Part shown: positions 3,030 through 10,942 of the stretch, piece by piece
Numbering within the stretch: position 1 is the first letter of the stretch
Layout of the letters: the number at the start of each line of letters is the position of its first letter
From: Candidatus Brocadia sapporoensis
GTDB taxonomy: Bacteria > Planctomycetota > Brocadiia > Brocadiales > Brocadiaceae
DNA: 41,852 nucleotides
Direction of reading: 5' to 3'
Assembly: GCF_001753675.2 (NCBI RefSeq)
Contig: NZ_MJUW02000100.1
Location: 1-41,852, forward strand
Position numbers and translations under genes: made by a program
The notes under the pieces: model-generated
Seen by the model: the letters and a program-made list of their open reading frames with translations, nothing else
Told to the model about the DNA's origin: nothing
Database searches by the model: none

Positions 3030-3884
3030 ATGTGCTATCAAATGAAAATATCTGTATTTAGCAGTTTTGTTTTTTTTTCCATGATCATGTCTGGTTGTGC
3101 AACCTATAAAACTGCCGTTTTAAAAAAACCGGTTTGGGAGGATACTTCAGCCATTCTGGCAAATATCCAGGGGGAAAGACAAAATCTTACGGTACAGCAG
3201 ATCAGGGATATCTTGATTTCCACGAGTTCCAGACTTACCGGTTTTCGCGCAAATATTGACTTAGCCCTTACGACACCAGACGCCAAAGTCCCTGTCCGCT
3301 GTACGGGACTGATCTTATATCAAAGTCCCAGGAGTTTACGGGCAATAGGCGCTAAGTTTGCAACAACGTTGTTTGATATGTCTTCCGATGGCAACAGGTT
3401 CTGGTTGTACATCCCTCCGGAAAACCTTGCATACACGGGTGAGTCCAATACCTTTCACAAGATTGAGGTGCTTGGCATCAGCATCTTCCCCGGTGATATG
3501 GCAAGCTTGTTTAATTACCGGGAAATTTTGCAAGGGAAACAGCCTACCATGGAAACCTGGCCTGCATATTGGCTGCTCCATATGCTCGAAGTGGGGAATG
3601 AGGATGTGAATCTGAAAGGAAATCTCATGATTGACAGGGTCAATGCGGAGGTTGTTCGCTGTGAACTGTTTAATCCGGACGGTTCGGTTCGTCTAGAGGC
3701 GGTATTTACTAATTACACAACGCAGAACGAATGCCGGATACCACAAAAGATTGATGTTCGCTGGCCGACATATAATACAACTCTTAGTATAACGTTTTCT
3801 CATATTACCGTAAATGGCGTAATCGACCCAAAACTCTTCACCCTTTCAATTCCTGAAGAGACGCAAATCATTACCTTAAACTAG
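3030..3884 (+). CDS. outer-membrane-type lipoprotein, LolA/LolB-like (DUF4292-like)
   Basis: The 284-residue product has a lipoprotein signal with the lipobox MSGC near residues 19-22, so it should be lipidated on that Cys. The rest looks like a beta-rich LolA/LolB-type fold, with patterns such as a short aromatic motif FWLYIPPENLAY; the DUF4292 assignment is tentative. The ATG at 3030 has a weak AAAGA ribosome site, and an in-frame ATG at 3042 gives a cleaner signal peptide. It follows the polyferredoxin gene closely and is probably in its operon. Its TAG stop lies in the CTAG end of a MITE-like element, so the original C-terminus may have been different. Confidence 0.6.
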   Translation: MCYQMKISVFSSFVFFSMIMSGCATYKTAVLKKPVWEDTSAILANIQGERQNLTVQQIRDILISTSSRLTGFRANIDLALTTPDAKVPVRCTGLILYQSPRSLRAIGAKFATTLFDMSSDGNRFWLYIPPENLAYTGESNTFHKIEVLGISIFPGDMASLFNYREILQGKQPTMETWPAYWLLHMLEVGNEDVNLKGNLMIDRVNAEVVRCELFNPDGSVRLEAVFTNYTTQNECRIPQKIDVRWPTYNTTLSITFSHITVNGVIDPKLFTLSIPEETQIITLN

Positions 3885-5770: not shown

Positions 5771-7585
5771 ATGAAACGAAAGACTCTTAAACTGCCCTGT
5801 TTATTTGTGATTTTCAGTGTCCTCTCTGCCTTCATTTCCCAAAGCAATCCTTCGCTCTTTTCCGCAGAAACGGTCATGGGTATCGATGAAATTGTACCAG
5901 GCATGAAAGGATACGGTAAGACCGTTTTCACCGGAGACCGGATTGAAATATTTAATGTCGAAGTATTGGGTATCTTACGAAACTGGGAAGCGAAGAGCAA
6001 TATGATTCTGATCAGGATGTCGGGAGGTCCTCTGGAAAAATCAGGGATTATTGCCGGTATGAGCGGCAGTCCGGTTTATATCAGAAGCCGGCTCATTGGA
6101 GCCGTTGCCTATGGATGGAGCTTCGCAAAGGAACCGATTGCAGGAGTTACCCCGATTCACGAAATGAAAAGCACTCTCCTCGATATACCGCCGCAAGAAA
6201 ATAGCGCCTTGCCAGTCACGGCAGAGTGGGACATCCCCGCCTTTTCTCAGAATGGGTGGCTAACAAAACCGGCGGCAACTTCGATACCGCTGGAATCAGC
6301 GAACCACGATGCTGGGAAAATAACGCTCACACCAATTCTCTCCCCATTAGTAGTATCTGGTGTTGAAAACGATGTTTTGCAAAGAATGCTGCCACTCTTT
6401 CATACCTATGGATTGTATCCTGTTCAGGGAGGAAACTATGATTTTTGTCCCGATAACCCGGAAAAGAGCAAGCTTGTTCCTGGGGCATCCGTAGCCGCCA
6501 TTCTTATCAGAGGCGACCTGAGTGCAGCCGTTGTTGGAACGGTAACTTATGAGGAAGGAGATAACATCCTCGCCTTTGGGCATCCTTTTCTACAGACGGG
6601 AAATGCAGACCTTCCCATGGCATCAGCCTACGTTTATACAGTCCTCAGCAGTCAGTCGAGTTCTGTAAAAATGGCGTCACCGGTAGAAATCGTTGGCCGG
6701 ATACATCAGGACAGGAGGTCCGGAATTGCCGGTATTCTTGGTGAGTCATCACGGATGATACCTTGCCGTGTTGAAGTGGAAGGTTCGCAGAAACTCACAT
6801 ACAATTTTGAGATCGTGGATAATAAACTTTTAACCCCCAGCCTCATCTTAATGGCCGCCCAGAGCGCTGTGTTATCCACAGAACGCAAGGTGGGAGAGAA
6901 ATCGGTACATATAAAACTGACAACCCACCTTGAAGGCTACGAAAACCCTGTTGTTATCGAAAATGTTTTTTATGAACTTGACCAATCATGGTTTTCTCTG
7001 AACCATATTGTTCAGCCCTTTACGATGATCATCAATAATCAGTTTCGGGAGATACACCCAACCAGGATCGATCTGAAAGTCACGGTATTAGATACCCGGA
7101 AAACTGCCTATATCGAATCAATCCGGGTAGATAAGAAACAAGTAAAAGCCGGTGATACCCTTCAGGTTGACGTGTGCCTGAAACCTTTTACCGGAGAAAA
7201 ATTTTATCAAACGGTACTTATGCATATTCCCGAAGATACCCTTCCCGGAAGTATGTTAAACCTTACCGCCTGTGACGCTACTTATGGTCAGGCATTGAAT
7301 ATTGGGCGGTCTGCAGGGAAGTATTTTCCCACGAACTTTGAACAACTCGTACAATATGTCGAAAACATGGAGCGAAATAATAATCTTATGGTACGGATCC
7401 TGCTGACAAAAAAGGGTATTACTTATAAGGGAGAGGGGTTCCCATCGCTACCAGCATCTATGCTTTCGATTATGAGTTTTTCCAATTGCAGCGGGATTGG
7501 CCCTCTCTCTGACGAAGTAGTGTCCCGCGTGCCGATGAAATACGTGTTAAACGGAAATCAAACGATCCCCATTTCAGTTAAATAA
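5771..7585 (+). CDS. secreted SpoIVB/S55-family peptidase-like protein, reordered halves
   Basis: The 604-residue product has a signal peptide (about 1-31) and two segments resembling the S55 serine peptidase domain of SpoIVB. The segment with the serine motif GMSGSPV (96-102) comes first, followed by the IGAVAYGW and GVTPIHEM patterns. The segment with the histidine motif AFGHPF (268-273) comes later, after a 100-residue insert, and is followed by a GIAGILGE motif. In B. subtilis SpoIVB the catalytic order is His236, Asp363, Ser378, so the halves are reversed here. The Asp position just before the Ser motif reads MSGGPLE, so the third catalytic residue is unclear. The C-terminal 250 residues look beta-rich. 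A beta-propeller gene follows 11 bases downstream. Proteolytic activity is not proven. Confidence 0.75.
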   Translation: MKRKTLKLPCLFVIFSVLSAFISQSNPSLFSAETVMGIDEIVPGMKGYGKTVFTGDRIEIFNVEVLGILRNWEAKSNMILIRMSGGPLEKSGIIAGMSGSPVYIRSRLIGAVAYGWSFAKEPIAGVTPIHEMKSTLLDIPPQENSALPVTAEWDIPAFSQNGWLTKPAATSIPLESANHDAGKITLTPILSPLVVSGVENDVLQRMLPLFHTYGLYPVQGGNYDFCPDNPEKSKLVPGASVAAILIRGDLSAAVVGTVTYEEGDNILAFGHPFLQTGNADLPMASAYVYTVLSSQSSSVKMASPVEIVGRIHQDRRSGIAGILGESSRMIPCRVEVEGSQKLTYNFEIVDNKLLTPSLILMAAQSAVLSTERKVGEKSVHIKLTTHLEGYENPVVIENVFYELDQSWFSLNHIVQPFTMIINNQFREIHPTRIDLKVTVLDTRKTAYIESIRVDKKQVKAGDTLQVDVCLKPFTGEKFYQTVLMHIPEDTLPGSMLNLTACDATYGQALNIGRSAGKYFPTNFEQLVQYVENMERNNNLMVRILLTKKGITYKGEGFPSLPASMLSIMSFSNCSGIGPLSDEVVSRVPMKYVLNGNQTIPISVK

Positions 7586-7596
7586 AAGGACGCAAC

Positions 7597-9825
7597 ATGA
7601 AAGGCATTGCGGTAAAAACAATCTGTACACTATTTTTCCTCATCCTCCTCAATCCTTACGCCTTTAGTACTACAACGAACACGTGGACGCAATCGACAGA
7701 ATCTGATTTTAGTAAGGGCACGATTCAGGGTGTCTCTATCAATAATAAAGGCGAAATCTGGCTTGCTCCGGTAATCAAGACTGTCACGGGGATAAAAGGC
7801 GCTTTTGTCTGGTCAATGGCCACAGATTTACAAAACAACGTGTTTGTTGGTACGGGCGACCCGGGCACCGTTTATCTGATAAAGGACGGTTCAGAGGCTG
7901 TGGAGATTTTCAGTTCTCCGGAACTATATATTCAGAGCCTTGTCGCGGATACATCCGGCAATCTCTATGTAGGAACAGCACCCAGGGGTATCATTTATAA
8001 GATAAATAATCATGGAGATGCTTCCGTATTTTGCAGCTTGCCGGTACCCTATATATGGGATATGTCTATGGACAACAACTCTAATCTCTTTGCCGCCACG
8101 GGAAATGACGGCATTCTGTTCAAAATATCTCCGGACGGCAGGCCGTCCGTTTTTTTTAATTCCCCTGAGACCAATCTGCTGGATATACTGCACGACCGGT
8201 ATGACAATATCTATGTTGGCACAGAACCGAATGGTTTGGTATATAAAATAACCCCATCCGGACAAGCGCAGGTGATCTATGATGCAAGCGAAAGTGAGAT
8301 CCATTGCCTTTCGATGGATTCCGCAGGTAATATTTACGCCGGCACGGCTTCGGGTACCCAGGCACAAATACCTGTGGTTCCGGTTTCCCAGCCGCCCGTA
8401 CAGGCCGGAGCTATTACCGCTCTTTTTAAAGAAGAAAAATCATGGGATTTGAACCTCCCGGAAGAACTCCCCATGGCACAACCGGCACCCGTGCAACAAC
8501 AAAAAACAGTATTGAAAGGTATCGATGCGCCACCGAAGTCCACAGGTCTTCCTACAGCATCAAACTACGTCTATAAAATCAACCAGGAAGGACTTGTACA
8601 AAAAAAACTGGAAACGAGCCAGGCATTTATCCTTGGTATGTCCTTTGATGCGCAAGACAACCTGTATGTGGTTACAGGGAACACCTCAGGAGTGTTCAAA
8701 ATCTCCGGCGATGAAAGTGCAAGCAGTCTGGTGCACCTAGAGGAGGTACAGGCGCTGTGCTGCCTCAATACCGGTAAAAATGAACTCTATTTTGGCACAG
8801 GTAATATGGGAAGAGTTTATAAGATATCACCTTCATTTACGAAAGAGGGAAGTTTTCTGTCAAACGTGTTCGATACCACTGCGCCATCTAATTGGGGTTG
8901 TATTTATTGGGCAGGCATGCAGCCGGAAGGCACAAGACTCACCCTGTCCACCCGTTCAGGAAACGGAGAAAAACCTGATGCCACATGGAGTGGTTGGTCT
9001 GCACCCTATGAGGATAGCGGAGAAAGAATCACAAGCCCTCCTGCTCGCTTTATCCAATACAAAGCCATTTTGCAGACAAACAATAGCGATTTAACCCCTA
9101 TGTTAAACGCAGTATCACTCGCATATCTCCCAAAAAATGAGCCTCCCAGGATAATCAGTTTTGGGATAGAAAAGGAATCTTCTCCCGCATCACAAAAACT
9201 ACCGGAGACAAAAACGGACGGCAAGATAGAATCGAAGCCACAGGGAACTCCGGGACAAAAACCACATCATCAGGTTGCCCAGAAGAATATCCAGTGGGAG
9301 ACGGAGGACCCAAACAACGACACGTTGCAGGTAACGATGTATTACCGGGGAGTTGAGGAAAAAATGTGGAAGATTCTCGATAAGAATACTCAAAAAAAGG
9401 GCTCTTGTATATGGGATACCTTACGTCTGCCTGATGGTAAATATCAGGTAAAACTCATGGTCAGTGATGACCCCGACAACCCACCCGAGACGGCCTTCAG
9501 CACGGAGAAAACGACCGAACCTGTGGTAGTTGATAACACAAGACCGGACATCAGGTGTTTGAACGCTGCGGTTGGGGCCGAGGGGAAATATGTCATTTCA
9601 GGCACCGCGAAGGACGAGTATAGCAAAATTGTAAAGATCCAATATACCATTGATGGACAGGAATGGATCCCGGCATTCCCTATGGACGGTATCTTCGACA
9701 GTCCTGAGGAATCTTTTCAAATTACCACCAGGCTCCTGACGCCGGGTGATTATACGTTAATCATCAATGCATTTGACGGTGAAGGGAATATCGGGATTGA
9801 AAAGGTGCTGTTTGAGGCGAAATGA
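7597..9825 (+). CDS. secreted beta-propeller protein with Ig-like C-terminus
   Basis: This 742-residue secreted protein has a signal peptide of about 25 residues. It carries at least six copies of a blade motif of the type DN-x-YVGTG-x-x-G-x-VYKI between residues about 75 and 420, the pattern of NHL/SMP-30 or two-component-regulator propellers. A proline- and glutamine-rich linker interrupts the propeller near 255-310. After residue 440 come lectin- or Ig-like beta segments: a WSGWSAPY region, a low-complexity linker at about 530-570, and two Ig-like units with DGKYQVKLMVSDDPDNP. No catalytic motif is visible. It is almost certainly cotranscribed with the S55-like gene, so it may be its substrate, partner or scaffold. 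That link is inference from spacing. Confidence 0.7.
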   Translation: MKGIAVKTICTLFFLILLNPYAFSTTTNTWTQSTESDFSKGTIQGVSINNKGEIWLAPVIKTVTGIKGAFVWSMATDLQNNVFVGTGDPGTVYLIKDGSEAVEIFSSPELYIQSLVADTSGNLYVGTAPRGIIYKINNHGDASVFCSLPVPYIWDMSMDNNSNLFAATGNDGILFKISPDGRPSVFFNSPETNLLDILHDRYDNIYVGTEPNGLVYKITPSGQAQVIYDASESEIHCLSMDSAGNIYAGTASGTQAQIPVVPVSQPPVQAGAITALFKEEKSWDLNLPEELPMAQPAPVQQQKTVLKGIDAPPKSTGLPTASNYVYKINQEGLVQKKLETSQAFILGMSFDAQDNLYVVTGNTSGVFKISGDESASSLVHLEEVQALCCLNTGKNELYFGTGNMGRVYKISPSFTKEGSFLSNVFDTTAPSNWGCIYWAGMQPEGTRLTLSTRSGNGEKPDATWSGWSAPYEDSGERITSPPARFIQYKAILQTNNSDLTPMLNAVSLAYLPKNEPPRIISFGIEKESSPASQKLPETKTDGKIESKPQGTPGQKPHHQVAQKNIQWETEDPNNDTLQVTMYYRGVEEKMWKILDKNTQKKGSCIWDTLRLPDGKYQVKLMVSDDPDNPPETAFSTEKTTEPVVVDNTRPDIRCLNAAVGAEGKYVISGTAKDEYSKIVKIQYTIDGQEWIPAFPMDGIFDSPEESFQITTRLLTPGDYTLIINAFDGEGNIGIEKVLFEAK

Positions 9826-9939: not shown

Positions 9940-10328
<389 letters not shown>

Positions 10329-10355: not shown

Positions 10356-10942
10356 TCAAACGAAACACTTCTCTTGTTCGTCTTTTTTTTTAACCAACGG
10401 ATGCCCCGACGATATTACACTTCATTTATCTGCCTGAGGGTCTCTTCATCCAACAACCTTATATTGTCCTTGATGCTCTGCATCGAAAAAACCTTTGCCT
10501 CTCCAAATGTCGTCTCAACCCCCATTATCTGCCTGATAAGTTTGTGGTGGTTGGCAAAATCCTCCAACCGGTCATAATCAGCATCTAACCCTAATCTCAC
10601 CACCGACAACACCAAAATATGCCATAAATCCATCCCATATCTTCCCGTCTTTTTCTTCCCCTTCGTTACCTTCGTCTCTAATATCCGGAATACCTCCTCG
10701 TTCAACTCCGCTGTAACATAGATATGTTGCAATGCCCTCAGTATCGGTGGTAGTTCATCTCGACCCTTTCGTGGCAGTTTTACTTCAGAAATAGATATGA
10801 CTCCAAGTTGCCTTTGCTGCTCAAATACTTCGATTAACTCAGTACAGGTCTCTTTCTCATGTTCTATCGAATGTCCTTTGGCTGACGTGTTAATGAATCG
10901 AATTTTTACACTCTTTATACCCAGAATCCCTTTGTTTTCGCC
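10356..10942 (-). pseudogene. ISNCY-like transposase remnant, frameshifted and truncated
   Basis: The minus strand encodes the N-terminal part of a transposase of the ISNCY type. The frame is open from 10942 but has no ATG, GTG or TTG until the TTG at 10732. It contains RLGLDADYDRLEDFANHH and the following LIRQIMG segment, typical of this group. The reading stops at TAA 10415-10417. The expected continuation, with a GHPLVKKKDEQEKC segment, is present one frame over, so a one-base loss or two-base gain broke it near 10417. Coding then ends at 10356, so the catalytic C-terminus is missing. The family name rests on memory of similar proteins. Confidence 0.65.

Follow-up and report, generated by a model that had tools for sequence, protein, structure and literature searches.

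A predicted S55-like protease with swapped barrels and its beta-propeller partner in Planctomycetota and other phyla

The protein encoded at positions 5771-7585 (+ strand) of the window, that is, of the whole stretch of 41,852 nucleotides analysed, raises the question of whether the two halves of a SpoIVB-like peptidase (S55) can stand in reversed order in the chain. A previous reading of the sequence alone had put the serine motif GMSGSPV at residues 96-102 and the histidine motif AFGHPF at residues 268-273, and had suggested a circularly permuted domain with an insert. The open reading frame, with an ATG start and the limits originally proposed, gives a product of 604 amino acids, in which both motifs occupy those positions. 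The host genome has 2.93 Mb, and among named organisms it is closest to Candidatus Brocadia and other anammox Planctomycetota. The features considered in the gene and in its downstream neighbour were the following:

5771..5869, + strand: signal peptide-like N-terminus, residues 1-33 (hydrophobic helix 9-23 in the model, by eye)
5870..6196, + strand: Ser barrel, residues 34-142 (PF05580 positions 126-199; VIA matches)
6056..6073, + strand: GMSGSP motif, residues 96-101 (Ser98, equivalent to SpoIVB Ser378, is the predicted nucleophile)
6197..6325, + strand: inter-barrel linker of variable length, residues 143-185 (pLDDT below 50 at 143-175)
6326..6820, + strand: His half, residues 186-350 (hhalign to SpoIVB; Foldseek of the isolated half)
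6581..6583, + strand: codon of His271, equivalent to SpoIVB His236 (invariant in 28/28 sequences; block comparison alignment)
6710..6712, + strand: codon of Asp314, predicted third catalytic residue (invariant in 28/28 sequences; aligns with SpoIVB Asn290)
6821..7582, + strand: C-terminal part, residues 351-604 (secondary structure of the model)
7597..9825, + strand: predicted exported beta-propeller protein, 742 amino acids (Reg_prop, E 5.6e-12)

The C-terminal part contains first a mixed alpha/beta segment and then a mostly beta region, and residues 445-604 show a weak resemblance to a complement C3 domain (Z 5.4, VIA).

Two barrels in swapped order

The Pfam profile of Peptidase_S55 (PF05580) aligned only to residues 50-123 of the protein, with E 3.7e-9, and did so through profile positions 126-199 of 210, which means that the Ser end of the S55 family stands first. 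The alignment to the SpoIVB crystal sequence 9lnf spanned nearly the same stretch (residues 50-126). When artificially re-joined sequences were scanned with Pfam the gain was small (39.2 versus 37.4 bits), so a more sensitive comparison of profiles was used. Its SpoIVB side consisted of four proteins, that of B. subtilis and three others of Firmicutes, taken from plasmid records. For B. subtilis, the core sequence given for 9lnf was used, with Ser378 and Ser380 in their native form, and 11 residues were placed before it. The family side was an alignment of 78 sequences (A2); as GMSGSP[VI]Y had served as the pattern for gathering them, their Ser motif is constant by construction.

With A2 in its native order, the best hhalign alignment to the SpoIVB profile was that of the Ser half, and a second, separate alignment covered the His half (template columns 252-325). 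The Ser half scored 97.4, the highest of 100 column shuffles being 20.3, and the His half scored 50.6, compared to at most 22.0 for 100 column shuffles and 12.7 when reversed, which bears out the earlier impression that both halves resemble SpoIVB. When the halves were re-joined in the order of SpoIVB, one continuous alignment of 185 columns was obtained with a score of 128.8, against 98.9 in the native order, a value due to the Ser half alone; with a shuffled His half joined instead, scores did not exceed 98.9. A single alignment on re-joining in the SpoIVB order is the expected signature of a permutation.

Concerning structure, the AlphaFold2 model of the whole chain built on the alignment reached pLDDT 85.9 and pTM 0.82, with values below 50 at residues 143-175. 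A Foldseek search of the whole model against the PDB gave only chance-like matches (E near 0.01, probability <0.1), whereas VIA on the model and searches with the isolated His half were informative. By VIA, residues 33-142 superposed on the C-terminal barrel of Deg2 (residues 208-315, Z 9.3), on residues 142-255 of DegS (Z 8.2), on trypsin 121-245 (Z about 7) and on SpoIVB 9lnf (Z 6.7), so they correspond to the C-terminal type of PA-clan barrel, the one bearing the nucleophile, as expected of clan PA. The His half modelled by itself (residues 186-354; pLDDT 87, pTM 0.82) had SpoIVB 9lnf as its top Foldseek match (probability 0.94), and the matches next in rank were mainly the proteases Spl, V8 and Esp; in VIA, nearly all of its 50 rows were PA-clan proteases, with a best Z of 6.0. 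A Z of 6 is weak when taken alone, and it is the consistency of the PA-clan rows, together with the sequence match, that carries the argument for the His half; an N-terminal type of barrel with the histidine is thus present, the match being moderate by structure alone. Within the His half (186-350), the barrel itself is made of six strands (residues 240-323); His271 follows strand 3, and Asp314 lies between strands 5 and 6. This is the plan of the chymotrypsin fold.

So, the structure prediction matched both halves (33-142 and 186-354) to PA-clan barrels, and the circular permutation is supported by sequence profiles and by two predicted structures, which independently show two such barrels swapped. 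The supposed insert, on the other hand, turned out to be a variable linker of low confidence (143-185) followed by a beta-alpha-beta element. In the 78 homologues the linker measures from 21 to 104 residues between columns 136 and 190. The two motifs, Ser and His, are clearly farther apart in three loci (L033, L034 and L082; about 226 residues versus 175), indicating that the linker tolerates large insertions.

The swapped order is general among the homologues. The protease was present in 37 of 39 relatives and in 51 of 199 Planctomycetota genomes, and a genome scan yielded at least 593 confirmed stretches, of which the best 80, loci from named genome records, were surveyed. These best 80 belong to Planctomycetota, Acidobacteriota, Aminicenantota, Gemmatimonadota, Zixibacteria, Latescibacterota, Handelsmanbacteria, Poribacteria and Armatimonadota; for single contigs that carry the label Actinomycetota or Bifidobacterium, mis-binning is possible. 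The Ser motif preceded the His motif in all 80, and in all members of a further set of 28 sequences found by whole-genome search without a motif pattern; the SpoIVB order occurred in none of either group. Three of the 80 loci lack a simple F/L/I-G-H string, and His271 is nonetheless invariant in A2. An assembly artefact was discarded, as hundreds of genomes show this order, some of them consisting of a single contig. A search for viral relatives found none.

Two side observations were made among these sequences. The protease gene of a close relative (L011) contains an in-frame TAA, perhaps reflecting a pseudogene or an assembly error. An HtrA-like protein of 834 amino acids (L158 1084-3588, in G094) exceeds the PF05580 cut-off, so that Pfam S55 matches in such genomes need checking; it accounts for the second PF05580 match of G094, which was rejected as a relative.

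The predicted active site

Seven residues were invariant in the 28-sequence set: Gly96, Ser98, Ser100, Asp249, His271, Lys300 and Asp314. A2 agrees for Ser98, Ser100, Asp249, His271 and Asp314. In the block comparison with SpoIVB, Ser98 paired with Ser378 and His271 with His236. The conserved Ser98, His271 and Asp314 stand at the places expected in clan PA. The sequence-only reading was right in that no Asp is conserved near the Ser motif, the position of SpoIVB Asp363 being occupied by Ser84/Gly85; what it missed was the invariant Asp314 in its place.

Asp314 pairs with SpoIVB Asn290 through the block 305-324, which in an ungapped comparison matched SpoIVB 281-300 with z 4.7, the next-best placement giving 2.5. 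In hhalign, a 10-residue gap near Asp314 leaves Asp314 and Asn290 unpaired, so the pairing is that of the ungapped comparison. At the Asn290 position the four SpoIVB sequences of the profile have Asn, Ser, Asn and Asn. In the SpoIVB crystal, Asp363 lies about 24 A from His236, its role has been doubted and Thr393 has been proposed instead (PMC12502668). The position of Thr393 is Ala113 in the protein studied here and is not kept. We propose that the true third catalytic position is Asp314 and that its counterpart in SpoIVB is perhaps Asn290.

The propeller partner and the proposed mechanism

The open reading frame of the propeller starts 11 bases after the protease stop codon, on the same strand and behind an AAAGGA sequence, and its homologues carry Ig-like C-terminal domains. 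Among the best 80 of the at least 593 stretches, the propeller gene was downstream of the protease or fused to it in 60; of the remainder, 11 stop within 2 kb on the downstream side and nine encode the propeller elsewhere in the genome, so that the two are adjacent or fused in 60 of the 69 informative loci. In three loci (L130, L132 and L136) protease and propeller form one polypeptide, with the protease first, both proteins whole and a linker between them; the three sit in one four-row group of the tree, hence a single fusion event is possible. Of the 199 Planctomycetota genomes, 49 had both genes, two the protease only and none the propeller only (Fisher p ~1e-44, the relatedness of the genomes being ignored), and in 46 of the 49 pairs the propeller gene lay downstream of the protease gene, with contig and strand in common. 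The propeller is, then, an almost obligate partner of the protease, and the link that had been suggested from the single locus is, by adjacency, fusion and co-occurrence, far stronger than could be known at that point.

No conserved third gene was found beside the pair in the best 80 of the at least 593 stretches, beyond close relatives. Upstream of it, the window encodes a putative lipoprotein of 284 amino acids (3030-3884) with a sub-threshold match to DUF4292, relatives of which are near the pair in six of those 80 loci. Just 3' of the propeller gene there is a tRNA-Pro (cgg; 9940-10017) and, after it, a short open reading frame of 105 amino acids on the minus strand (10415-10732), which by eye resembles a transposase remnant.

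It seems likely that the protein is a permuted, S55-like secreted serine protease with a Ser98-His271-Asp314 triad, acting on envelope proteins with the propeller as scaffold. In the chain, the Ser barrel (34-142) would be followed by the flexible linker and by the His barrel (240-323), the two barrels probably packing against each other as in chymotrypsin, with Ser98 as the predicted nucleophile, His271 as the base and Asp314 as the third residue. The protease would act outside the cytoplasm jointly with the neighbouring propeller protein, as the fusion and the co-occurrence indicate that both act together; the propeller would most likely hold or present substrates, or regulate, by analogy with the PDZ domain of SpoIVB. 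An envelope protein is the probable substrate and would perhaps be subjected to processing or quality control; an envelope role is proposed because of the signal peptides and because the carriers belong mostly to diderm phyla.

The strict co-occurrence and adjacency would also fit a propeller that is the dedicated substrate or inhibitor of the protease, freed by cleavage, and a fusion would suit cleavage in cis. We regard this as unlikely, although its substrate version is a close rival, since the fused form, with both proteins whole and joined by a linker, suggests joint working. It seems rather improbable that the protein is a pseudo-enzyme that retained the fold as a binding module and cuts nothing: the displacement of Asp363 in SpoIVB (PMC12502668) would agree with it, but Ser98, His271 and Asp314 are invariant over many phyla, and a binding module would not need that. 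The length, variability and low confidence of the linker would permit an exchange of barrels between copies, giving a domain-swapped dimer in which the permuted barrels are paired between chains; however, the whole chain was modelled as a monomer with pTM 0.82 and some homologue linkers, which span only 21 residues from column 136 to column 190, are too short to favour exchange, so that this arrangement appears distinctly improbable. Finally, that only the Ser half is S55-related, the His half being a beta domain of other origin whose GH motif arose by chance, is hardly credible: Pfam does align the Ser half alone in the window protein, but the profile score of the His half is more than twice the best of 100 shuffles, its top structural match is SpoIVB, SpoIVB 281-300 is the one place to which block 305-324 aligns (on this and on the profile score a chance His motif was rejected), and two PF05580 stretches were counted for L109 and L135.

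Novelty and relation to known families

In the open-access literature searched, neither an earlier description of the permuted family nor a natural permuted PA-clan protease was found, which is weak evidence of novelty; S55 peptidases have been widely detected in Acidobacteria (PMC8841776). The protease and the propeller seem to be an undescribed two-protein system. A broader proposal, which we put forward tentatively and hold at a little less than even, is that this would be a natural permutation of the chymotrypsin fold, fixed before the family reached its roughly nine or ten phyla and tied to an obligate propeller partner in a general system of envelope proteolysis, and that the invariant Asp314 would mark Asn290 as a third catalytic position that had been missed in SpoIVB, for which the family offers a direct test. 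The two proteins define a conserved module of Planctomycetota, Acidobacteriota and further phyla that have been little studied. Such proteins probably carry the annotation 'SpoIVB peptidase' in bacteria that do not sporulate, a name that points to a wrong role and conceals the permutation. Should it prove active, the protein would be a natural chymotrypsin-type protease with swapped barrels, useful for studying how such folds tolerate permutation.

The PorU-PorZ pair of type IX secretion also joins a surface protease and a beta-propeller protein, as an analogy of design only: the similarity of the propeller to PorZ (NCBIfam) is weak, 19 of 260 bits and far below the cut-off, and PorU, a cysteine protease, has a different fold. 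Within clan PA, the Ser barrel aligns with the C-terminal barrels of the HtrA/Deg proteases (S1C) Deg2, DegS and DegQ (Z 8-9) at a sequence identity of 13-20%, but in HtrA the residues come in the usual order His-Asp-Ser and the protease is followed by PDZ domains.

Compared to SpoIVB (S55, PF05580, 9lnf), both barrels are homologous in sequence, the GMSGSP motif is common, and Ser378 and His236 correspond to Ser98 and His271. PF05580 is matched above its curated cut-off (37.4 bits versus 25), by the Ser half only, while NCBIfam TIGR02860, the equivalog for SpoIVB proper, gives 27.9 bits where the cut-off is 305. A PDZ domain, which SpoIVB has, did not appear beside the protease by Pfam up to E 1, and no Asp occupies the position of Asp363. 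The carriers of the permuted protease, unlike those of SpoIVB, are not Firmicutes. Other differences are that Ser98 precedes His271, the barrels being swapped with respect to the single His-then-Ser domain of S55, that Asp314 stands where SpoIVB has Asn290, and that the protein has a long C-terminal extension and a propeller partner.
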